Part shown: positions 50,069 through 62,756 of the stretch, one piece after another
How positions within the stretch are numbered: position 1 is the stretch's first letter
Layout: the number at the start of each line of letters is the position of its first letter
Assembly (NCBI RefSeq): GCF_900182605.1
Contig: NZ_FXTB01000001.1
Span: forward strand, 62,001 to 126,000
DNA length: 64,000 nucleotides
Reading direction: 5' to 3'
Source of the DNA: Saccharicrinis carchari
Lineage (GTDB): Bacteria; Bacteroidota; Bacteroidia; Bacteroidales; Marinilabiliaceae
The notes under the pieces: generated by a model
Told to the model about the DNA's origin: nothing
Databases searched by the model: none
Seen by the model: only the letters and a program-made list of their open reading frames with translations
Made by a program: the position numbers and the translations under genes

Positions 50069-50494
50069 ATGGAAACAATATCAAATACAGCAAGATTTGC
50101 TGTTTCGTTAGATCGCGAATTGTTGGACAATTTTGACCATGTAATTGAAGCGCAGGGTTACAACACCCGGTCGGAGGCCATTCGGGATTTGATTCGCGAC
50201 AAGCTCGTGAACCTGAATTGGGATGAAAAAGAGGAAGCCATTGGCACCATAACCCTGGTCTTCAATCATCATCTTTACTCCTTATCCGATGAACTTACCA
50301 ATAAACAGCACGATCATCATGCTATGATTGTCTCGTCCATGCATGTACACCTCGATCACGACAACTGTCTGGAGATAATTGCAGTAAAGGGCAAAGGTGA
50401 AAAAATCCGCAAGCTGGCTGATTCTTTGATCAGTTTAAAAGGTGTCAAACATGGCAAATTAACCCTCACTACAGCCGGAAAGGAAAATTTGTAA
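50069..50494 (+). CDS. nikR: Nickel-responsive regulator NikR
   Basis: A 141-residue ribbon-helix-helix repressor. Residues 8-48 form the DNA-binding ribbon-helix-helix (TARFAVSLDRELLDNFD, YNTRSEAIRDLIRD), and the C-terminal ACT-like domain (about 58-135) contains the high-affinity nickel site: His92, His94 and Cys100 in MHVHLDHDNCLEII, with His81 expected from the partner subunit (H76, H87, H89 and C95 in E. coli NikR). When nickel is bound NikR represses nickel uptake genes; some homologues also activate urease. Its position beside a TonB receptor and nikABCDE, with urease nearby, makes these the expected targets. It is convergent with the receptor gene. Confidence 0.95.
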   Translation: METISNTARFAVSLDRELLDNFDHVIEAQGYNTRSEAIRDLIRDKLVNLNWDEKEEAIGTITLVFNHHLYSLSDELTNKQHDHHAMIVSSMHVHLDHDNCLEIIAVKGKGEKIRKLADSLISLKGVKHGKLTLTTAGKENL

Positions 50495-50670: not shown

Positions 50671-52929
50671 TTAGAGATTATAAGCCACGCCGATGGTGAA
50701 ATTGCGTAAAGGCGCAGGCCCATACGACTGTCCCTGGCCCAAATCAAACACATAGGTGGCATAGTTAAGATCGAACATATTGTTCAGTTCAACAAAAAAT
50801 TGTCCACTGTGGGATGAATTACTGCCAAGGTTATAAAAGAGGGCGGCATCGGCAACCGTATATCCTTCATAAAAAAAGGAGTTGGTCTGTCCGGTTGCGT
50901 ACTTCCCTATATCCCGCATGTTAATTCGTGCACCAAAGCCGTATTTCAGGGTGTAATCAAGCGAGAGTGAAGTCACCGTCCGTGGAATATTCGTTAATTC
51001 CTTTCCCTCTAGATCTTTGTTCACATTGTCCATTACCTCCGTACTGGTATAGGCAAACGAAGCTGTAATATGGAAGCGGTCAAAGGGTTGTGCTTTTAGC
51101 CCCATCTCGAGCCCTCGTCGTTGGGTTGTTCCGGAATTAAAAAACTCTCCGGAGCCCGGGGCAGTTTCGCTTATCTCTTTGGATGTGTTCAATATAAAAC
51201 CGGTTAAATTGACATTGAAAAAACTGCTGCGGCCATAAACTATACCGGCTTCGTATTGCCAAATCTCTGCGGGATCTACGTCCATGTCGCTATTGTAACG
51301 GATTGCACTAGGGGGTATGATAAAACCATTGGAAACATTGGCTTTAAAATCGAAACCCGGAAACAGGGTGGAACGGAAACCTATTTTTGGACTAACATGC
51401 GATAAGTCATTGAGCGACTTATTTTCCTCAGCAACTCCGGGGTCGCGTAATTCCAAGGTTCCATTGTACACATCGTAACGCAGCCCCACGGTTGGTCTAA
51501 AATAAGTGCTTATTTCAAATTCCCCCTGAGCAAAAGCCGAAAAGGATTGTAAGTTGTAATTCCGTTTTTGCCTTAAGGCTCTCCGTACTCTATTTTCAGT
51601 GCCCCATCTTTTCGAATTGGTCATTTCGTTATAGAACTCAAGACCACCTACCCAATTCACATCCATGAATCCAAAGGCATGTTTCCCGTTCAAATTGGCT
51701 CCTACGGCATACACATTCCGTTTATTATTATTTTCAGATTGCCCTCCGGGTTGATAACTAAATTTTGCATAACGTTGGTAATCTTGTTGAACGGCATATC
51801 CAAAAACAAGCAAACGTAAGTTTTCGTTAAAGCTATGGTTGACATCCAGCCGTTCAGAGGCAAAGTTTTTAGCTCCACCATCGTTCTCTGCGTTGAGGGC
51901 CTGTTTGTTACGTCGGTCCAGCTCGTTGAACTGTTCTCCGGGAATATAACCGGGAGCATCCCATGTGCCGCTGTAGCCCTTTAGGTTCAGGGCAATATCG
52001 GTATGGTCGCCCACGTCATAGGCCACCCGTCCGTTTAAATTCCCTTTTAAAAATTCAGCATTTTCCGTAAAGCCCTTTGTACGGTACAGTTGTGCGGCAA
52101 AATTGGTTCTTAAGGTATTATCGCCAAGCTCAAAGGGCTTTCCCAGGGCAATTTGTCCGTCAAATGTTTCAAAAGAACCACCTTTAAGGCTGAGGTCTTG
52201 ATATTCTCCGTCTTTTCTGGTTTCAAAAGACAGGGTTCCGGCCATGGCATAGCGCCCAAACAGCACCGAAGAGGGCCCTTTGTAAACATCAACTTTAGAA
52301 ATATTCAGGGGGATTATTAAATTCATATCGGCGTAGCCGTCGTGCGAGCCCTCGCCCTCGTTCAAGGAAATACCATCTACTTCAATGGCTGCCTGGCCCT
52401 CGTGCCCTCCGCCACTAAAACCTCGCATAGTAAATACATCGGCCGTACCACCTTGGTTATAGGCTCCAATTTCTACCCCCGGAACTTGATACAGGATTTG
52501 CTGGGGATTGCTAAGATGAAGTTTTTTAATGCTGTTGAGATGCACTGTGCTGATGCTAGCCGGACTATTACGATTTTGCAGGGCGCCTCCCTTTACCGTA
52601 ATACCTGATAGTTGAAAGCGCAATTTTTTCAAGCTTATATTTACCGTAGTAGTTTCCAGGGCTTCCAGTTTTATCCTCTTTTGGGCTGTAGCATAACCGA
52701 TGGCCGAAGCCTCTAAAGTATAATCTCCCGGAGCAATATCGTTAATGGAAAAATATCCTTTTTCATCTGAATAGGTTCCTTTGCCGGTTTCTACAACCGA
52801 TAGATTCACATGGTCCAGGGCGGAACCTTCCTCGGAAATAATCCATCCCTTAATTTCGCCTGTAGACTGGCCATTGAGTGCTGAGACAGATAGTATCAAA
52901 ATAAAAAACACTAAGGATGTAAGCTTCAT
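50671..52929 (-). CDS. TonB-dependent receptor, probably for nickel (chelate) uptake
   Basis: A 752-residue outer-membrane receptor from the ATG at 52929 (a TTG three codons upstream is rejected). Signal peptide to about residue 20; CarboxypepD_reg-like domain (about 22-105, GEIKGWIISEEGSALDHVNL); plug (about 115-225, with YNQGGTADVFTMRGFSGG and VDVYKGPSSVLFGRYAMAG); then a 22-strand-type barrel ending FTIGVAYNL. General TonB machinery would energise it. The nickel assignment is inference: it lies between nikR and nikABCDE and shares a distinctive 21-bp-spaced upstream motif with nikA. Other metal chelates are possible. TonB-linked nickel receptors (FrpB4, FecA3) are known from Helicobacter. 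Confidence 0.85.
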   Translation of the reverse strand: MKLTSLVFFILILSVSALNGQSTGEIKGWIISEEGSALDHVNLSVVETGKGTYSDEKGYFSINDIAPGDYTLEASAIGYATAQKRIKLEALETTTVNISLKKLRFQLSGITVKGGALQNRNSPASISTVHLNSIKKLHLSNPQQILYQVPGVEIGAYNQGGTADVFTMRGFSGGGHEGQAAIEVDGISLNEGEGSHDGYADMNLIIPLNISKVDVYKGPSSVLFGRYAMAGTLSFETRKDGEYQDLSLKGGSFETFDGQIALGKPFELGDNTLRTNFAAQLYRTKGFTENAEFLKGNLNGRVAYDVGDHTDIALNLKGYSGTWDAPGYIPGEQFNELDRRNKQALNAENDGGAKNFASERLDVNHSFNENLRLLVFGYAVQQDYQRYAKFSYQPGGQSENNNKRNVYAVGANLNGKHAFGFMDVNWVGGLEFYNEMTNSKRWGTENRVRRALRQKRNYNLQSFSAFAQGEFEISTYFRPTVGLRYDVYNGTLELRDPGVAEENKSLNDLSHVSPKIGFRSTLFPGFDFKANVSNGFIIPPSAIRYNSDMDVDPAEIWQYEAGIVYGRSSFFNVNLTGFILNTSKEISETAPGSGEFFNSGTTQRRGLEMGLKAQPFDRFHITASFAYTSTEVMDNVNKDLEGKELTNIPRTVTSLSLDYTLKYGFGARINMRDIGKYATGQTNSFFYEGYTVADAALFYNLGSNSSHSGQFFVELNNMFDLNYATYVFDLGQGQSYGPAPLRNFTIGVAYNL

Positions 52930-52953: not shown

Positions 52954-52985
52954 CGTAATACTTTTAGCGCACTTCGTAATACTGA
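52954..52985 (-). promoter_or_regulatory. Candidate nickel operator upstream of the TonB receptor
   Basis: Plus strand: CGTAATAC at 52954-52961 repeated at 52975-52982, exactly 21 bp apart, with TTTTAGCGCACTT between, followed by TGA. The same arrangement occurs before nikA. It starts 25 bases upstream of the receptor ATG, a place where a bound repressor would block transcription. Binding by NikR is inferred from gene content. Confidence 0.65.
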
Positions 52986-53071
52986 GTAAACTTAAACATT
53001 TTCTTCGAATATTTTATTACCGTTTAGGTTCTTTCGGGAATTGAAATATATGCCCTTTATTGCCTATATGA

Positions 53072-53170
53072 TTTAACCACAATGTACACAAAGGCTACAC
53101 AGTGTGTTCACAACGTTTCCTTGTGTCCTTTATGCATTCCTTGTGCTCTTTGTGGTCTTTTTTTAACCAC
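53072..53170. repeat. CACAAAG/CTTTGTG intergenic inverted-repeat element
   Basis: The left arm (TTAACCACAATGTACACAAAGG) and right arm (CCTTGTGCTCTTTGTGGT, then a T run and AACCAC) form a long imperfect inverted repeat built from phased ACAAAG/CTTTGT units; internal units CCTTGTGTCCTTTATG fit the same pattern. Elements of this style occur between genes in many Bacteroidota and related genomes. It lies between nikE and the TonB receptor promoter and may also act as a terminator for the nik operon. Confidence 0.6.
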
Positions 53171-53272
53171 CATGTTTATAATGAATTAGGCTACATATCC
53201 TTTTGATTATTGACGGATCGTGCTGGCTGAGTAAATACGAAAAACTTTACATTTGCCGGGTTATTTCTAATT

Positions 53273-53884
53273 TCAACTATTACCCACAAGCTCCTCAAAA
53301 CTCAAAATACGATGGCAGGTTTGCTTTAACAAGGGCAACTCATGGCTAATAACCAACATGCCCAACTGGCGCTGCTGCACCAGTTGCAAAACCGCTTGCC
53401 AAATCTGCGCCTGGGCGATGGCATCGAGCATGGTGGTTATTTCGTCTGCTATCAGGTATTTGGTTTCGAGTGCAATTGCACGTGCAAGGCAGAACCGTTG
53501 CAATTCGCCTGCCGATAGCTGTGAGGGAAAACGGTGCATCCACTCTTTACTAATACCCAGTTTCCGTAAGAATTTATTACTATATTCTCCGGATTCTGAT
53601 AAAACTTGCTTCATTCGCCAATGTGGATTAATCGTTTTTTCCGGATGTTGTCCGATTAACTGAACCGGATTACGTCCTTTTGGGGGATAAGCTTTTCCAT
53701 CTACAGCAATCCAACCTTTATCGGGCTTTAGGTAACCGGCCATAATTTTGGCAAAAGTAGTTTTACCTACACCGCTCTGCCCGAATAGTCCAACTACTTC
53801 TCCCGGCTTTAGGCTGAACTCAATTTTATTAAATATCCACTGCCCCGGCTGGTAACAAAAACCAAGGTTCTTAACTGTTAGCAT
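53273..53884 (-). CDS. nikE: Nickel/peptide-type ABC transporter ATP-binding protein NikE
   Basis: A 203-residue ABC ATPase, shorter than the usual 250-330 residues because it lacks a C-terminal extension. Walker A GQSGVGKT (35-42), signature LSAGELQR (Gly of LSGG replaced by Ala), Walker B YLIADE and switch histidine in VISHELP. It energises import together with NikD. The gene overlaps nikD by 14 bases and ends the nik operon. The substrate assignment follows from NikR and the shared operator; by sequence alone it is a NikE/DppF/OppF-type subunit. Confidence 0.88.
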   Translation of the reverse strand: MLTVKNLGFCYQPGQWIFNKIEFSLKPGEVVGLFGQSGVGKTTFAKIMAGYLKPDKGWIAVDGKAYPPKGRNPVQLIGQHPEKTINPHWRMKQVLSESGEYSNKFLRKLGISKEWMHRFPSQLSAGELQRFCLARAIALETKYLIADEITTMLDAIAQAQIWQAVLQLVQQRQLGMLVISHELPLLKQTCHRILSFEELVGNS

Positions 53885-54836
53885 AAAAACATCTTGTTAA
53901 ACCATTATTTACTCTTGTGGATCCCGGTCTGTTGTTACGGCAAAAATCGCTAATCATTAAACATCGTGGCCCAAATACACAACCGGCGAATACCTCCATC
54001 GCTTCAGGCTGATTACCATCTAAGGATTCAAAACTATTTTCGGGTAAAGCACGCCACAAAGCTTTTGTATAAGGATGCCTCAAGCGGTCGCCATTTCCTG
54101 TAAAGTCCTTTTTATTGGCAATCTCCACTGTTTCTCCGGCATAAAAAACTGCAATTTTATCGGCAATTTTTAAAGCAGCATGAATATCGTGGGTAATAAA
54201 CAGGACGGCCTTGTTGGCTTTGCAAAGCTGTTTAATATGGCTGAGTGTTTCGTTCCAGGACTCCTCGTCTAAACCGGGGGTGGGTTCGTCGGCAATGATT
54301 AGTTTTGCCTCGCTTACCATTGCTGTGGCTATTAATACCCTGCGAGCCATTCCGCCGGAAAGTTCAAAGGGGTATTTTTTATCTGTATCGTGCGGTAAAC
54401 CCAGTTTATCAAAAGCTTCTCGTTGTATTCTAATTTTTGCCTTTTTATCCGGGATAATACTTTGTACCTGCTTAGCGGTTTTCATTAAAGGATCCAAAGC
54501 CTTTATCGACTGCGGAATAAGCGAAATGGCCTTGCCACGGAGCTTATTCTGTAGTTTTGGCGTTAAAGCCTGACCTTCAAAAAATATTGCTCCATTGGTT
54601 TGGGCATTGTTGGGTAAGATGCCCAAAATAGAGTCGGCCAGCAGGCTTTTTCCCGAGCCGCTGGAGCCCACAACGGCCACTATTTCTCCAGGACAGATAG
54701 TCAGCTCAAAATCCCGAATGACCTGGATCTGGGATTCTTCAAATCCATTTTTATACTGAGGAAATGAGAGAGAAAGGTTTTTGACCTCTAAAAGTGGTTT
54801 CTTATCATTTGTATTATAATGTCCTTTGATTTTCAT
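53871..54836 (-). CDS. nikD: Nickel/peptide-type ABC transporter ATP-binding protein NikD
   Basis: A 321-residue ABC ATPase: Walker A GSSGSGKS (57-64), signature ELSGGMARR, Walker B LIIADEPTPGLD, and the C-terminal oligopeptide/dipeptide-transporter extension (about 245-321) with four cysteines (CVFGPRC, then DFC and TRC), a pattern that in DppD-type proteins can hold an iron-sulfur cluster. Works with NikE on the cytoplasmic face of NikBC. Eight bases separate it from nikC and it overlaps nikE. Confidence 0.9.
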   Translation of the reverse strand: MKIKGHYNTNDKKPLLEVKNLSLSFPQYKNGFEESQIQVIRDFELTICPGEIVAVVGSSGSGKSLLADSILGILPNNAQTNGAIFFEGQALTPKLQNKLRGKAISLIPQSIKALDPLMKTAKQVQSIIPDKKAKIRIQREAFDKLGLPHDTDKKYPFELSGGMARRVLIATAMVSEAKLIIADEPTPGLDEESWNETLSHIKQLCKANKAVLFITHDIHAALKIADKIAVFYAGETVEIANKKDFTGNGDRLRHPYTKALWRALPENSFESLDGNQPEAMEVFAGCVFGPRCLMISDFCRNNRPGSTRVNNGLTRCFYANS

Positions 54837-54844
54837 GGTAAATT

Positions 54845-55708
54845 TTATTCTTTTTGTCCTTTAAATGGGTCGAAAATAGTACGTAAATTACGTCCCAGAC
54901 TATCAAAAACCGCCACCATCATTAACAACATCAAACCGGGGAAAAGAGCCAGCCACCACATGCCGGACGACAAATATCCCATAGCTTCGGACAGAATAAC
55001 CCCAATTGCGGGTTGCTCCGAGGATAATCCAAAGCCCAAAAAGGTAATACTGGCTTCGTGCAAAATGGCATGTGGAAACATTAATATAAACCCGATAAAT
55101 AACTGGGGTATTAAATGAGGTAAAATATGATGCCGGGAAATCCAAAACCACGACTTTCCCATATTACGGGAAACCGTGATGTACTCGGTATTTTTTACCT
55201 GTTTAATTTCTGCTCGTAACAAACGTGCCAATCGGGGCCAATGGGTTAGGGCCACGGCAATGATTACGCCTTTTAGTCCGCCACCCAACATAAATGAAAT
55301 TAAAATTAAGGTTACGATATGAGGCAGCCCGAGAAACAAATCAATAAGTCCCGTAACGATGGAATCCATCGTTTTATTCAACACCAATAACAGGCTAAGC
55401 ATCAGAGCGATGGTGGCACTTATGAAGGCGGCCAGTAAGCCCACCCAAAAACTAAGAGCCAAGCCCTTAACGGTTCGCACAAACATATCGCGTCCCAGCC
55501 AATCGGTACCAAAGGGATGGCTTAATGACGGACTGCTGTTTGCCGCCTCAAAATTAACCGCTAATCCTTTTATACCCATAAAAAAACCGCTCCCTACCAA
55601 TATTAATAGTAGAGCAACGGAAATTATTGAGGTGGTTAATGCCTCTTTGCGCCTATTCCAATTTATGGCGCGCTTTAATGGCAGATATTTATAAATCAGT
55701 TCATTCAT
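54845..55708 (-). CDS. nikC: Nickel/peptide-type ABC transporter permease NikC
   Basis: A 287-residue inner-membrane permease with six predicted helices, of the DppC/OppC/NikC type. The extracellular loop contains SHPFGTDWLGRDMFVRTVKG, a strong family signature, and the EAA-like loop region is HEASITFLGFGLSSEQPAIG. It pairs with NikB to form the channel. It overlaps nikB by eight bases, indicating translational coupling. Confidence 0.92.
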   Translation of the reverse strand: MNELIYKYLPLKRAINWNRRKEALTTSIISVALLLILVGSGFFMGIKGLAVNFEAANSSPSLSHPFGTDWLGRDMFVRTVKGLALSFWVGLLAAFISATIALMLSLLLVLNKTMDSIVTGLIDLFLGLPHIVTLILISFMLGGGLKGVIIAVALTHWPRLARLLRAEIKQVKNTEYITVSRNMGKSWFWISRHHILPHLIPQLFIGFILMFPHAILHEASITFLGFGLSSEQPAIGVILSEAMGYLSSGMWWLALFPGLMLLMMVAVFDSLGRNLRTIFDPFKGQKE

Positions 55709-56681
55709 GCGCCTGTTTAATTTTCATTCGCGGATCGACGAGCACATAAAGCAAGTCTGCCATAAAATTTCCCACAAAAATAAATACAACGCTGAACAAG
55801 GTAATCCCCAACAGAAGGGGTACGTCGCCTCCCAGCCCGGCTTTGACCACTGCTTGTCCCAAACCGGGGTACGAAAATACCTGTTCGGTTAAAACGGCAC
55901 CACCAAAAAGTTCGCCAAAGGATGCAAAATGCAAGGAGATGGCCGGTAATGAAATATTGCGCAGGCCATGGCGCCACAATAATCCCGTTCCGCTTTCTCC
56001 TTTGGCTTTGGCAAAGCGGATAAATTCGCTATTGAGCACCTCAATTAATTTTTCGCGGGTATGCAAAGCAATACTGGCTACTCCACCAATACTCAAAGTT
56101 AATACGGGTAAAACCAAGTGATTTAAGGTATCTGCCAGGCTTACCTCACCCGCCAAGCTGCCTGCAGGGGCTGCCAGCCCCACCGGAAACCAATTGAGAC
56201 AGGCGGCAAAAACCATCAGTACCAATATACCAAACCAAAATGCCGGGGTTGAGGCCAAAATAAAGGAATAACTTTTAATAATGCGATCGAGCAGCGACCC
56301 TTCATTCATTCCGGCTGCGATGCCCAGTATAAATCCGAAAATACCCGATAGCACCCACGCCAATCCCATGAGCAGAATGGAGGCAGAAAACCGTTGCACA
56401 ATAATCTCAGAAACTGGCTTCCGGTATATCAACGATTCCCCCAAATTACCTTGCCCCACCGCTTTGGCCCATAAAAAAAACTGTTCCGGCTTGGATTGGT
56501 GCAAACCCCAATATGCTTCGATATCCTCCCGTTGCTCCGGGCTTATCCTTGATATTTCGGCTCCGATATACGATTGAACCGGATCTACAGGAGAATAACT
56601 TATCAGCACAAAGGATAGCAGACTGATGGCAACGAGCAATGCAGCTAACTTTCCTGTTTTTCTGAAGATAAATTTAATCAT
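55701..56681 (-). CDS. nikB: Nickel/peptide-type ABC transporter permease NikB
   Basis: A 326-residue inner-membrane permease of the DppB/OppB/NikB type with six helices. The N-terminal ALLVAISLLSFVLISYSPVDPV and the glycine-rich GQGNLGESLIYRKPVSEII segment are characteristic, as is the EAA loop FIRFAKAKGESGTGLLWRHG and GGAVLTEQVFSYPGLGQAVV near the C-terminus. Partner of NikC; 27 bases downstream of the nikA frame. Confidence 0.92.
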   Translation of the reverse strand: MIKFIFRKTGKLAALLVAISLLSFVLISYSPVDPVQSYIGAEISRISPEQREDIEAYWGLHQSKPEQFFLWAKAVGQGNLGESLIYRKPVSEIIVQRFSASILLMGLAWVLSGIFGFILGIAAGMNEGSLLDRIIKSYSFILASTPAFWFGILVLMVFAACLNWFPVGLAAPAGSLAGEVSLADTLNHLVLPVLTLSIGGVASIALHTREKLIEVLNSEFIRFAKAKGESGTGLLWRHGLRNISLPAISLHFASFGELFGGAVLTEQVFSYPGLGQAVVKAGLGGDVPLLLGITLFSVVFIFVGNFMADLLYVLVDPRMKIKQAHE

Positions 56682-56708
56682 CTGTGGTTTTTTTAGGTCT
56701 TTCCTCTT

Positions 56709-58310
56709 TTATTCTTTCCAATGCCAGTTTTCAATAAAATCGGTTACGGGCCAATTGTGATCGTGGGGCTGTATTTTTTGTGGACCGATGACCAGATTTT
56801 CCCGCATAAAAAACAAATGATCCAGATTGACCAACCAAACCCAGGGTGCGTCCCCTTTGTTGGAAAAACCTGTTACACCGTCCCATTGTGCTTTTTTCCA
56901 ATAGGCATTGGCTTCATCTTGCGATGTGGCGGCAAGGGCTTTCACAAAATAGGCATCCACCGTATCGTTGGCATAATAATTCGGATTATTCAGTCCGCGT
57001 CCACTGACTTCGCTACTAAAGGCATTGTATAATTCAAGCGGATCGTGACTTCCTAAACCAAATAAGGTGGCATTGGCATGAACCTGTTTTTCTATCCCCC
57101 GCCAGTTATCGCCCTTTATCTCAACCTGTATGCCCAAGGGTTTCATCATTTGGGCAAAGGCAATGGATAAGGATTGCCGTATTTGATCGTTGGAGGGATA
57201 ATACAAGGTAAAGGCTGCTTTTATTCCATTTTTATAGCGAATACCGTCTTTTTCTTCTCTCCAACCGGCTTCCTCCAAAATTTCTTTTGCTTTTTTGATG
57301 TTCCCATCATTTTCAATTTTGGTTTGGGGATTCCACCAGGGTAAACCATCGGCTATGGAATAGGCTGGTGTTCCGTAACCCCTTAAAACCCCTTTGACTA
57401 ATGCCTCGCGATCTACCCCGATATTCATGGCCTTGCGGATGGCTTCATCCGAAGTAACCCTGTTTCCAATGGGGTGCCCGTTATCAGTTCTTCCTTCCTC
57501 GGACACAAAAGGGAGGGCCACGCCACGGTTGTCCACACTTTTTAGGGCAAGCAGTTTCATGCCCTTAATTTTTTTATCGGCCAGTGCCGGCGTAACCGAT
57601 GCCACATCTACCTGACCTGCCTTGGCTGCGGCAAAAGCCGCATCCTGGGATAAAAATAAAAATACCAGCTCCTCAAAAAAAGGAGCCTTCCCATAGTAAT
57701 AAGGGTTGACCGTAAGGATCAACTGTTGTCCTTTATCCCACTGCACCAATTGATAAGGCCCCGAACCCACTGGATTTTCATTGTACAAAGCGTCGTAGGC
57801 ATGTTCAGGTACGATACCCAAGCTTGTGAGATGATGGATGAACGTGGAGTTCCGCTTTTTTAGGGTAAACCGGACTGTAAAGTCATCTAACTGTTCTACT
57901 TCCCTTAAGTTGGTAAGGTCAACTACCGAAGCACTTTGCTTAGCGGTAGTAAAGGTAAAGACCACATCCTTAGCTGTTAGGGGCTTTCCATCGGAAAACT
58001 GGATATTGTCGCGCAGTTTTACCGTCCATTTAAGTCCGTCGTCGCTAATCTCATACTCGATGGCGGCATCATTTTCAATATTAAAATCCTTATCGTATTT
58101 TAATAAAGTACTCTGAAAAAGCGGCGACGCATATTGTCCCCATCCGGTGGTGGGATCAAAACCATTATCGGGCTCTCCGCCAATGGCTAAAATCAAAGTT
58201 TTTTTGCGCTCCTCCGCACCGTCCTGTTTGGTTTTATCTTGATTTACACAGGAACCAATCAGCACACTGAGCAAGAGCCAAAAGACCAAGCTTATATTTC
58301 TTTCCATCAT
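56709..58310 (-). CDS. nikA: Nickel/peptide-type ABC transporter substrate-binding lipoprotein NikA
   Basis: A 533-residue family 5 extracellular solute-binding protein with a lipobox (LLLSVLIGSC, Cys about 21), so it is anchored in the periplasm. It shows the family landmarks DNIQFSDGKPLTAKDVVFTF, the NPVGSGPYQLVQWDKG stretch and VDVASVTPALADKKIK. In the NikA branch the ligand is a nickel chelate; similar proteins bind dipeptides, so nickel is inferred from NikR and the shared operator 35 bases upstream of the ATG. The TTG at 58322 is rejected in favour of ATG 58310 (58307 is also possible). First gene of nikABCDE. Confidence 0.88.
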   Translation of the reverse strand: MMERNISLVFWLLLSVLIGSCVNQDKTKQDGAEERKKTLILAIGGEPDNGFDPTTGWGQYASPLFQSTLLKYDKDFNIENDAAIEYEISDDGLKWTVKLRDNIQFSDGKPLTAKDVVFTFTTAKQSASVVDLTNLREVEQLDDFTVRFTLKKRNSTFIHHLTSLGIVPEHAYDALYNENPVGSGPYQLVQWDKGQQLILTVNPYYYGKAPFFEELVFLFLSQDAAFAAAKAGQVDVASVTPALADKKIKGMKLLALKSVDNRGVALPFVSEEGRTDNGHPIGNRVTSDEAIRKAMNIGVDREALVKGVLRGYGTPAYSIADGLPWWNPQTKIENDGNIKKAKEILEEAGWREEKDGIRYKNGIKAAFTLYYPSNDQIRQSLSIAFAQMMKPLGIQVEIKGDNWRGIEKQVHANATLFGLGSHDPLELYNAFSSEVSGRGLNNPNYYANDTVDAYFVKALAATSQDEANAYWKKAQWDGVTGFSNKGDAPWVWLVNLDHLFFMRENLVIGPQKIQPHDHNWPVTDFIENWHWKE

Positions 58311-58345
58311 TATAATTCGCAAAAAATAAAAATCATTCGGAAAGA

Positions 58346-58375
58346 TAATACTTTTTGGCGCATTCGTAATACTGA
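58346..58375 (-). promoter_or_regulatory. Candidate nickel operator upstream of nikA
   Basis: Plus strand: TAATAC at 58346-58351 and 58367-58372, 21 bp apart, with TTTTTGGCGCATTCG between and TGA following: the same motif as before the TonB receptor. On the gene strand the inner half overlaps TATCTTTC, a near match to the TAnnTTTG -7 element, so occupancy should block transcription. Confidence 0.65.
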
Positions 58376-59114: not shown

Positions 59115-59672
59115 TTAATTCAACATCAAGTCTTTCTTTCCCAATCTAAGTTTTGGTTTATTCAATTGAGAGATAGACTTTTTTACTCTTTCCCGAGTTT
59201 CATTCTGCAAGTAAGTCGGAATGAGTTTTGTTAAATCAATCCGTAAAACACGATGAATTATTACCAAATCTTTCATTGAAAATTGCGTAACTCCATTAAT
59301 CAATTCCGACATGTACGACTTTTTATGACCAAGTAAAATTGCCAAGTCGGTTTGGTTCATGTCATAGATTTTTAGTTTTTTTCTGATGGCCTCTTTTCTT
59401 TGAGCTATGAATCTTTGTTCAATTTCAACGAGCTGTTCCGCAGTTTCAGCATCGTCAAACTGCTTATCTGTGATATTATCACTATCGGACCAGCTTCTTT
59501 CTTCGTAATCCTGAATCAGTTGAAATAACTTGTCATGGAGTGGTTTTAAATCAACGTTTTCCTTGGCAAGTATTCGTAACTTTCGGTCAAGCAACAAGGC
59601 TTTTTGTAAATCATATTCGTTATCCAATTGTTGGATATTCTCTATTTCTCTAAAGTCAATTAAGTCTTTCAT
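59115..59672 (-). CDS. HigA-type antitoxin with C-terminal HTH domain
   Basis: A 185-residue protein from ATG 59672 (a TTG seven codons upstream overlaps the toxin frame). The C-terminal third holds an XRE-type helix-turn-helix (about 110-165: YDMNQTDLAILLGHKKSYMSELINGV) preceded by a helical region with acidic clusters. Directly behind a HigB-like gene this is the HigA-type antitoxin, which would bind and neutralise the toxin and repress the operon. The N-terminal half is longer than in small HigA proteins. The antitoxin frame is intact although the toxin is interrupted. Confidence 0.8.
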   Translation of the reverse strand: MKDLIDFREIENIQQLDNEYDLQKALLLDRKLRILAKENVDLKPLHDKLFQLIQDYEERSWSDSDNITDKQFDDAETAEQLVEIEQRFIAQRKEAIRKKLKIYDMNQTDLAILLGHKKSYMSELINGVTQFSMKDLVIIHRVLRIDLTKLIPTYLQNETRERVKKSISQLNKPKLRLGKKDLMLN

Positions 59673-59683
59673 TTCCACCAATT

Positions 59684-60025
59684 TTAAATCCAACCATTAT
59701 CTTTGAGCCACTTCTTAATCGTGTTTCTGTTGTTTTTAAATATCTTTTCGTAATCTTGGTGCGAACCTGTCCAAATAACGCGCGCTCTTTTGTTTTGGTC
59801 AAATTCTATCAAAATCATTGTACGATGAACATTTAGGTCGAAGAAATAGAATCCTTCGCTATGAACACAATCTGCATCGGGGCGAGTTTCTTTTAATTCT
59901 AACTGTGAATCTCAGCTACTTGTCTGAATGTCATTTATTAACTTCTCGATTGCTTTAATCAACGTAGTATTGTCACGGTTTTTCCGTTTGAATCGTTCAA
60001 GTAAACTCTTGTTAATTAAATTCAC
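59684..60025 (-). pseudogene. HigB-type mRNA interferase toxin with in-frame TGA
   Basis: Reading from a GTG at 60025, the frame gives a 113-residue HigB/RelE-like toxin: MNLINKSLLERFKRKNRD, then ELKETRPDADCVHSEGFYFF, DLNVHRTMILIEFD and the ending NRNTIKKWLKDNGWI. Codon 38 (59912-59914) is TGA, at a place where I would expect Trp (QTSS-stop-DSQLELKETRP). Everything downstream stays in frame and intact, so a single base change separates it from a functional gene. HigB toxins cleave mRNA on the ribosome. I call it an inactivated toxin; readthrough or an assembly error are alternatives. Confidence 0.8.
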
Positions 60026-60133: not shown

Positions 60134-60970
60134 TTAATATTTCCTCAATGAGCTTGGTGTTTCACCGAACCACTCTTGGCTAATTACTTTGTGGCAAGCC
60201 GCAATAACCCTTTGCACATCCTGTGTCATGTTGGCCAACACACGGATTGTAAATCCGGGAATGGTGAGCCGCGAAATTCCTGCGTCGAAATCGCAGGTCT
60301 GTTCATGGATGACGGCGTGCAGGCGTTTGATTAAATCATCATCGGTTTTTTGGCCAATAACAATAAGGGTACCCAAATGGGTGTAGTCGCCCATAAAGCC
60401 CAATATGTCAATTTGTTGAGCGGCCGGTTCGAGCTTTATATTATCAAATACCACCAACTCATCATCCATATAAATATTGGTTTTGAGTTGGAGCATATCA
60501 TAGCTGAATGAATTACCCTGGGCCGACCACCCGGGCGTTAGTATATCCGAATAGAGTAAAACAGCTCCCTTTTCCATGTAAATGCTGTCGAACTGTTTGT
60601 ATCGTGCATTTTCATACCCGATAACAGGATCGGGCATGTATACCAAATAGCTGTTTTTTTCGAGGTGTATCTCCGTTTCCTGATAAGCCGGTTTGTCCGG
60701 TGTTTTATAAATCAAAGTGGCCCCGAGGGTGGTAAGTGTTAGTTTAGCATTCTCTCGCACCCGAATTTCGAGGCGGTAGGTGTCGCCATCTAAATAACCA
60801 CCCCCCACGTTAAGGATATAATAACACAACATTCCCGTTTTTCCGTGGTAAATGGGTCTTTGCACCTTTAGTGCATTATGAAAATAAATATTTTTAGGTA
60901 CGGATTTACCTCTTCGGTTTTCAATATCCATGTTCAGATAACCGGTCCAGTTAGGTTTAGTCATGAGCAT
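60134..60970 (-). CDS. ureD: Urease accessory protein UreD (UreH)
   Basis: A 278-residue UreD/UreH-family scaffold that, with UreF and UreG, delivers nickel to the urease active site. Family-typical segments are [26 protein letters not shown], the [17 protein letters not shown] stretch and [14 protein letters not shown]. It is the last gene of the urease operon here, overlapping ureG by 14 bases. Start at ATG 60970, with ATG 60964 also possible. The order C-E-F-G-D is normal for Bacteroidota ureases. Confidence 0.92.
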
Positions 60971-61615: not shown

Positions 61616-62302
61616 TCACGACATAAATATCCTGACATTTACATACTCGTGCTGCATCTGAGCCAGTTCTATACCGGGAGCAATAGTTCCAAAATCAGTT
61701 TCTTCTAATTGATTTATGGCTGTTACTGCTTCGTTTAATTTAGGTCGAAAATCAGCAATTATTTTTTGTCCCGAGGTTTGTCCTAATGGTATGGCGCGCA
61801 CAGCATTTTGCACAAGATTAACTATTGTGGAATACAAATAATACAGCATTGTGCCGTCTCTGGAAATTTTTAAATAATGTCCGGCCAAAGCAAATAGGAT
61901 GGCCGGATGGGCGAAAGATTTTTTTTGCTGAATACGCTTGCTATACATGGCAATTGTGTCTGAATCGTAAATTTCAGTGGCAATTTTTACCAGTGATCTG
62001 CCCATAAATCGTGTTCCTTCGCGGGTTTCGCGCGCCATGTTTTGTATGGTCAGCAGGCGGTCCATTCGCCACACCTCATCCAGTTTACCTTCCTCTAAGG
62101 CCTTGTAAACGAGTTTTATGGCCAGACCATCGGAACTGACCATCTGCTCGTTTAAAAACAAGGTCAACCATTGGGAAAAGGTATCCGGATTGTGGACTGT
62201 ATTAGTTTGTATAAAAGTTTCCAGACCAAAAGAGTGGCTAAATCCCCCACTAGGGAAATTGGAGTCGCACAGTTGAAATAAGGCCAATAAGCTGTTATCC
62301 AT
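61616..62302 (-). CDS. ureF: Urease accessory protein UreF
   Basis: A 228-residue all-helical UreF, which bridges UreD and UreG in the activation complex. The N-terminal motif LCDSNFPSGGFSHSFGLETFIQT is diagnostic, and TIVNLVQNAVRAIPLGQTSGQKI is conserved near the C-terminus. The ATG at 62302 is chosen; the longer upstream frame lies inside ureE. It overlaps ureE by eight bases. Confidence 0.94.
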   Translation of the reverse strand: MDNSLLALFQLCDSNFPSGGFSHSFGLETFIQTNTVHNPDTFSQWLTLFLNEQMVSSDGLAIKLVYKALEEGKLDEVWRMDRLLTIQNMARETREGTRFMGRSLVKIATEIYDSDTIAMYSKRIQQKKSFAHPAILFALAGHYLKISRDGTMLYYLYSTIVNLVQNAVRAIPLGQTSGQKIIADFRPKLNEAVTAINQLEETDFGTIAPGIELAQMQHEYVNVRIFMS

Positions 62303-62756
62303 GGCTATGTGGTCCTGTTGTGTGCCGAAAAGCTTCTGCAACTTTTCTATCCTCCCGTTTAAATGCAATGCCCTTTTCCCTTAGCAAATCTTCTACCAGA
62401 TAGTCATATTGAACGAGCATTTCATCACCCTCAAACTTTGCGGGCATGTGCCGGTTACCCAACTCATGGGCAATAACGCCCATTTCGCGGATATCTTTGG
62501 GTTGTATGGCCAGTATATCGTCCGTTTTTACCTCGATAATAATTAAGTTGACATCGTCCATAAACAAGATATCGCCATCTACCATGTCCTGTGCAACTTT
62601 GAGGCGGATACCCATATCCCTGTTATGGTCGGTTTTAACGCGTTGTACCCTTTTAACCAAATCGGCACTGTTTAAGCTGACTTTTTCAATATGGCGTCCC
62701 CCAATTTCGGAGGAAGCCATATCGTGAATATTGCCAACGATCTTCTCTATTATCAT
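62295..62756 (-). CDS. ureE: Urease accessory protein UreE (nickel metallochaperone)
   Basis: A 153-residue UreE. The N-terminal peptide-binding-like domain is followed by the metal-binding domain with HELGNRHMPAKFEGDEM, whose first histidine matches the dimer-interface nickel ligand of other UreEs. The tail ends HTTGPHSHG, a short histidine-bearing end rather than the long His-rich tail of Klebsiella UreE, so storage capacity is probably lower. It delivers nickel to the UreDFG complex. Confidence 0.94.
   Translation of the reverse strand: MIIEKIVGNIHDMASSEIGGRHIEKVSLNSADLVKRVQRVKTDHNRDMGIRLKVAQDMVDGDILFMDDVNLIIIEVKTDDILAIQPKDIREMGVIAHELGNRHMPAKFEGDEMLVQYDYLVEDLLREKGIAFKREDRKVAEAFRHTTGPHSHG

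Follow-up and report, generated by a model that had tools for sequence, protein, structure and literature searches.

Predicted NikR operators before a TonB-dependent receptor and a nikABCDE-like importer, and the three orientations of related half-sites at nikR loci

Does the direction of its half-sites matter to NikR? The best-known operator of this textbook nickel sensor is an inverted repeat. In the 64,000-nucleotide stretch of Saccharicrinis carchari analysed here (contig NZ_FXTB01000001.1, positions 62,001 to 126,000; hereafter the window), a nikR gene adjoins genes for a TonB-dependent receptor and a nikABCDE-like ATP-binding cassette (ABC) importer, and an earlier note had described a shared repeat before both transcription units that looked direct. 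We conclude, with a probability of roughly 0.85, that both 28-bp elements are operators of the adjoining NikR, through which nickel-loaded NikR would repress the receptor and nikABCDE, and whose half-sites would be read in either orientation.

The repeat is indeed present at both places, and its exact limits are as follows:

52955..52982, minus strand: NikR-type predicted operator T, 5' of the TonB receptor gene; gene strand GTATTAC-N14-GTATTAC, ending 26 bp before the ATG
58345..58372, minus strand: NikR-type predicted operator A, 5' of the nikA-like gene; gene strand GTATTAC-N14-GTATTAT, ending 35 bp before the ATG

On the forward strand, site T reads GTAATAC-TTTTAGCGCACTTC-GTAATAC and site A reads ATAATAC-TTTTTGGCGCATTC-GTAATAC; each spans 28 bp, with an N14 spacer and 21 bp from half-site to half-site. 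Scanning the whole window for GTAWTAC-N14-GTAWTAC with up to three mismatches returned 21 matches where 13.1 were expected, a count attained in 3 of 100 shuffles; sites T and A are the only ones with zero or one mismatch, the remaining 19 having two or three. The 4.64-Mb genome of the same organism contains a tighter motif, RTAWTAC-N14-GTAWTAY, three times: two are sites T and A, and the third (L003) falls inside a 533-aa open reading frame (ORF) that begins with GTG. For the looser RTAWTAY-N14-RTAWTAY there are 14 places, compared with six for the reversed control; eight of these are in ORFs (including L003), two are T and A, and four are otherwise intergenic. At this density about 0.001 matches are expected per 300 bp of promoter DNA, and two were observed. 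The common filling of the two sites that the earlier note had pointed out is real, but we rejected its suggestion of a weak dyad centred on GCGC, which stands one base out of register between T and A and is absent from the equivalent sites of a second genome.

This second genome, G559, belongs to the same class but to another order, and carries the same nikR, receptor and nikABCDE cassette in identical order and orientation (identity to the window: NikR 78%, NikB 81%, NikA 72%, receptor 63%). Both its receptor and its nikA promoter contain a 28-bp site, so that the shared element before outer-membrane receptor and inner-membrane importer recurs in an independent genome; no further site was found in the 29.9 kb fetched of the G559 cassette region. 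With the Bacteroidota -7 consensus as the basis of promoter comparison, a -7-like TATATTTG precedes both G559 sites, its end being 2 bp away from the receptor site and 5 bp away from the nikA site, and the window offers only one-mismatch versions in front of its sites, at 4 and 10 bp. Elsewhere in G559, two operator copies 65 bp apart (L239 9831-9923; G559:C1:1931830-1931922) precede an operon encoding PF01497, FecCD, ATPase, methyltransferase and TonB receptor proteins, which is likely a metal-chelate uptake system under NikR. Upstream of L228 9534 (G559:C1:693572-693620), three half-sites in 21-bp steps stand before an operon of a TonB receptor and PF01497, an array that could seat overlapping NikR tetramers. 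Altogether, six of the 13 loose-motif places of G559 fall in these four uptake promoters (one each at the receptor and nikA, the two copies at L239, and two that overlap in the L228 array), the other seven lying within ORFs or without a gene just downstream. The six two-half-site sites align with 12 invariant columns once the nikA site of G559, whose direction relative to its gene is the opposite one, has been turned to match.

Whether these sites are direct or inverted repeats cannot be told from T and A alone, because GTAATAC is nearly palindromic: its reverse complement, GTATTAC, differs from it by one base pair. Read as inverted GTATTAC repeats, T has one mismatch and A two; read as direct repeats, they have none and one. 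All eight adjacent half-site pairs in the promoter sites of the window and G559 are direct. GTGTTAC, a half-site one base away from GTATTAC, differs from its own reverse complement at three bases, and this asymmetry makes its orientation unambiguous at one mismatch.

We therefore turn to the surroundings of other nikR genes, about 2.2 Mb around some 160 loci: 67 NikR loci of the window's order (up to 19.9 kb each), 13 of its family and 80 remoter ones. The 67 derive from 73 NikR matches outside the window after leaving out low-scoring fragments (G129, G192 twice, G073 and the second matches of G108 and G246), and the order and family set counts 79 loci because L091, in which tblastn with the window NikR detected nothing, was dropped from 80. 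In a search for exact 7-bp inverted repeats at spacings of 10 to 18, the leaders at spacing 14 in the 67 order loci were GTAACAC (five loci) and GTGTTAC (three loci), and in the 80 remoter loci GTGTTAC led at spacing 13 (seven loci). Allowing at most one mismatch, GTGTTAC pairs at spacings 13 and 14 form 59 sites in 51 of the 79 order and family loci: 36 direct, 13 inverted and 10 everted. Direct repeats are thus the commonest class, spread over 31 loci and 19 families. The other 39 spacings between 4 and 44 together yield 10 direct, five inverted and five everted pairs in the order, or 0.1 to 0.3 per spacing. When 100 scrambled half-sites were searched as direct repeats at 13 and 14, the mean was 1.4 and the largest count 11, compared with 36 for the true word; 11 was reached by CGTGTTA, the true word displaced by one base, and by TTTCAGG, for which we have no explanation. 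As inverted and everted repeats, TTTCAGG reaches eight (scramble mean 0.8; true word 23).

An ORF start, often that of nikR itself, lies within 350 bp of 55 of the 59 sites, and four sites were flagged inside an ORF of at least 150 aa. Among 29 scanned targets other than nikR, hand-chosen from 101 candidate ORFs, the barrel model of TonB receptors matches 21 and PF01497 three. Mixed GTATTAC/GTGTTAC sites exist as well (for example at L113, L203 and L204), so that the word of the window appears to be an extreme member of a single site family. Direct repeats are a real and widespread arrangement of NikR-type sites in the order. The contrast with the E. coli operator that the earlier note drew from the window alone is not supported, because with the near-palindromic GTAATAC a direct and an inverted repeat differ by a single base pair.

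How could one regulator use all three arrangements? At plentiful nickel, a nickel-loaded NikR tetramer would bind with one ribbon-helix-helix dimer on each 7-bp half-site, GTATTAC here and apparently GTGTTAC for many NikRs of the order. Half-sites 20–21 bp apart, that is two helical turns, would place both dimers on one face of the DNA, where bound NikR would cover the promoter start and the TonB receptor and nikABCDE importer would be repressed. Each NikR tetramer comprises two ribbon-helix-helix dimers, which insert their antiparallel strands into the major groove at the half-site (PMC4486848, PMC7949043; papers given by PMC number are cited from excerpts throughout). Because a two-fold symmetric dimer on the roughly palindromic frame GTNNNAC has no built-in direction, it may read a half-site either way, and direct, inverted and everted repeats would then all work. 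Nickel would be the co-repressor, since known NikRs act in this way. The sites, their recurrence in G559 and the three orientations at these particular spacings near nikR are observed, while the binding by NikR, the repression and its dependence on nickel, the promoter positions and the receptor substrate are what we infer. The wider proposition, which we hold to be probable though with clearly less assurance than the assignment of the two operators, is that NikR is orientation-blind: direct repeats would be the commonest operator in the order beside inverted and everted ones, arrays of three half-sites would be occupiable, and the window would belong to a transferred lineage, RFAVS/RFAIS, in which the half-site turned near-palindromic (from GTGTTAC to GTATTAC).

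Several results weigh against this interpretation. The earlier note had seen a partial relative of the motif before nikR, but the best places in the 262 bp 5' of the window nikR deviate at 4 of the 14 half-site positions and do not constitute a site, and the nikR promoter of G559 likewise has no site, its best place also being wrong at 4 of 14. Genome-wide, the loose motif of G559 is hardly in excess (13 places versus 10 for the reversed control), and we found just two genomes that carry the GTATTAC cassette. At one mismatch, 28 of the 79 order and family loci and 54 of the 80 remoter ones lack a site. As a test, the earlier note had named the presence of the motif beside nickel genes across Bacteroidota; exact GTAWTAC pairs, tried as an order-wide NikR motif and rejected, occur in 6 of 69 genomes with nikR and 17 of 226 without, whereas the one-base relative GTGTTAC is common beside nikR. 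Exact GTGTTAC direct repeats, too, show no genome-wide excess, being present in 8 of 40 NikR-bearing and 4 of 40 NikR-lacking genomes (reversed control: 6 of 40 and 7 of 40); the former were 40 of the 69 bearers, taken in list order without G073, G074 and G129, and the latter were drawn from the 226 others. Finally, inverted repeats outnumber direct ones in the remoter set, where 27 sites in 26 of the 80 loci comprise 16 inverted, eight direct and three everted pairs. The case rests on the spacing spike around nikR and on the recurrence in G559.

The dominance of inverted repeats in remoter taxa also lends something to the view that T and A are nothing but imperfect inverted repeats, like the E. 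coli operator, that their direct look is a by-product of a half-site one base pair from its own reverse complement, and that orientation does matter to NikR. We regard this as unlikely, because with the asymmetric GTGTTAC direct pairs at 13 and 14 remain the commonest in the order and the adjacent pairs of the window and G559 promoters all point the same way. In statistical terms, 36 direct among 59 is not different from the 50% of random orientation (p = 0.12), and 8 among 27 in the remoter set is borderline under it (p = 0.05). Slightly less probable again is that the elements bind another regulator, Fur-like or an unknown metal repressor, with nikR a mere neighbour. The missing association with NikR in the genome-wide control would suit this idea, as would the resemblance of the further G559 targets to general metal-chelate uptake operons; the 28-bp geometry and the half-site, however, fit published predicted NikR sites, and the related motif leads an inverted-repeat search that was centred on nikR and often stands directly 5' of it. 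That the likeness of the sites is a remnant of recent descent of the cassette and not of selection seems very improbable to us: the cassette looks transferred and has just two known carriers, but the receptors have diverged to 63% identity and the rest of the upstream DNA has no stretch alignable by eye, yet both half-sites persist, and the same element stands in two other G559 promoters.

The preferred reading, NikR acting on both operators, places the following genes under one regulator or beside it:

50069..50494, plus strand: nikR, nickel-responsive ribbon-helix-helix regulator, 141 aa (family models; DNA-reading strand RFAVS)
50671..52929, minus strand: TonB-dependent receptor with a CarboxypepD_reg-like domain, 752 aa (PF00593, PF07715, PF13715; its 63% identical G559 relative adjoins nikR)
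53273..53884, minus strand: nikE-like ATPase (family models and G559 comparison)
53871..54836, minus strand: nikD-like ATPase (family models and G559 comparison)
54845..55708, minus strand: nikC-like permease (family models and G559 comparison)
55701..56681, minus strand: nikB-like permease (family models and G559 comparison)
56709..58310, minus strand: nikA-like substrate-binding protein, SBP_bac_5 (top NCBIfam model nickel_nikA, below cut-off at 123.6 versus 393 bits)

By family model the product of 50069-50494 is certainly NikR (NF003381 201.3 bits, cut-off 105; PF08753 114.7, cut-off 22; PF01402 31.5, cut-off 20.5), with a ribbon-helix-helix N-terminus and a NikR_C nickel domain that both score above cut-off; its relatives in the PDB include 2bj1, 2wvd and 1q5v. 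A His/Cys metal-site region is conserved, HVHLDHDNCLEI aligning with E. coli HVHINHDDCLEI, where metal ligands lie. The composition of the site has been described as His3Cys (PMC7949043). The nikABCDE-like importer is transcribed leftwards from 58310, and all five subunits score under the cut-offs of the nickel-specific nik models; its metal would be nickel judging from the nearby nikR and urease genes, not from the models. Gene context likewise suggests nickel or a nickel-chelate as the substrate of the TonB receptor. Beyond 60134 lie urease genes, including ureG (TIGR00101 above cut-off) and a ureE-like gene (213.6 bits versus a cut-off of 223), and the urease alpha subunit gene, which is also present in G559, runs across the window end. 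Two minus-strand ORFs, 60134-60970 and 61616-62368, sit by eye where ureD and ureF would be expected and have no NCBIfam match at 1e-10. Nor does a 192-aa ORF between marC and the urease genes (59115-59693, minus strand), whose C-terminal stretch looks helix-turn-helix-like by eye.

Where did the cassette come from? It looks foreign to its host. Within the genus one genome in nine has a NikR, and within the family 15 of 71 do (the window's own included), and the cassette receptor was found at E < 1e-60 in 1 of 71 family genomes; as receptor searches scored at most 15 or 2 candidates per genome, absence there is not proof. In a FastTree tree of 164 NikRs, those of the window and G559 are joined (support 0.998) and sit in an 83-member clade without the order's own NikRs (support 0.999), a result favoured by the choice of the remoter set for its likeness to the window protein. 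At E < 1e-25, NikRs related to that of the window occur in 2 of 349 genomes of the G559 family (G559 included) and 3 of 395 genomes of the class (the window's included), a threshold that misses remoter NikRs such as that of G105, which is positive in the order search and negative here.

Two further repeats were noted in passing. At L263 1525-1552 (G000:C14), an inverted repeat of two perfect 12-bp arms (ATATTATTCCAT) with a 4-base loop stands 47 bp before a 201-aa ORF and may be the site of an unknown regulator or a hairpin. Contigs C231 and C271 of G039, a genome with no NikR match in the order search, carry near their ends a 21-bp tandem repeat containing GTATTAC, giving 18 pattern matches per strand in the genome.

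Two other candidates were dropped. The pattern GTAWKAY-N14-RTMWTAC, whose third base is A, gave 22 matches versus 18 for the reversed control in the 67 order loci and 12 versus 18 in the 80 remoter loci, hence no clear excess. A code in which the third residue of the reading strand sets the half-site (RFA with GTATTAC, RFG with GTGTTAC) is not claimed, as only the window and G559 fit. Among the seven further loci with a residue other than Gly, GTGTTAC-type sites occur at L069 and L198 and a mixed one at L113, whereas L122, L215 and the RFA loci L173 and L199 show no site at two mismatches.

For nickel biology, the three orientations at spacings of 13 and 14 make half-site direction testable for a symmetric ribbon-helix-helix tetramer, and GTGTTAC-type sites provide a search motif for Bacteroidota nickel regulons, TonB receptors above all. 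Among the titles listed in our search of open-licence literature, we found no published Bacteroidota NikR operators or direct-repeat NikR sites. The 2010 paper of Benanti and Chivers on Geobacter uraniireducens NikR announces a distinct binding mode in its title and may already report orientation freedom. That NikR reportedly has an Arg-Gly-Ser reading strand, as do most NikRs of the window's order (RFGVS). The RFAVS strand of the window is close to RFSVS of Helicobacter pylori and differs from RVTIT of E. coli. In H. pylori, fecA3 and frpB4 are TonB-type outer-membrane receptors.

Compared with known systems, the predicted operators are in several respects familiar. PMC2667541 surveys NikR, without operator sequences in the part available. 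Published NikR operators span 27-28 bp with GTGTTAC or GTATGAT halves and N13/14 (PMC545781). The deltaproteobacterial predictions among them, GTGTTAC-N13/14-GTAACAC, share the 27-28 bp span, the 7-bp halves and the N13/14 spacer with the window, their half-site is one base from GTATTAC, and the hydAB site of D. desulfuricans even has a GTATTAC half; the list includes an everted form, and Table 4 contains no direct repeat, the targets being nikMQO-type transporters and hydrogenase rather than TonB receptors (PMC545781). The E. coli operator GTATGA-N16-TCATAC is alike in its 28-bp span, its GTA...TAC ends and its control of nikABCDE, but differs in being an inverted repeat with the half-site GTATGA (PMC7055735). 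In Caldithrix abyssi, a NikR-like motif precedes nikR and TonB receptor loci, a similar link, whereas the transporter is nikMNQO and not nikABCDE (PMC5317091). H. pylori NikR differs in a 25-bp span and in additionally controlling urease and storage genes, but as in the window its conserved elements, the pentamers TRTTA and TAWTA, lie at a distance of two helical turns, with 15 nt separating them, and it likewise controls nickel-uptake genes, fecA3 and frpB4 (PMC5385501, PMC7055735).

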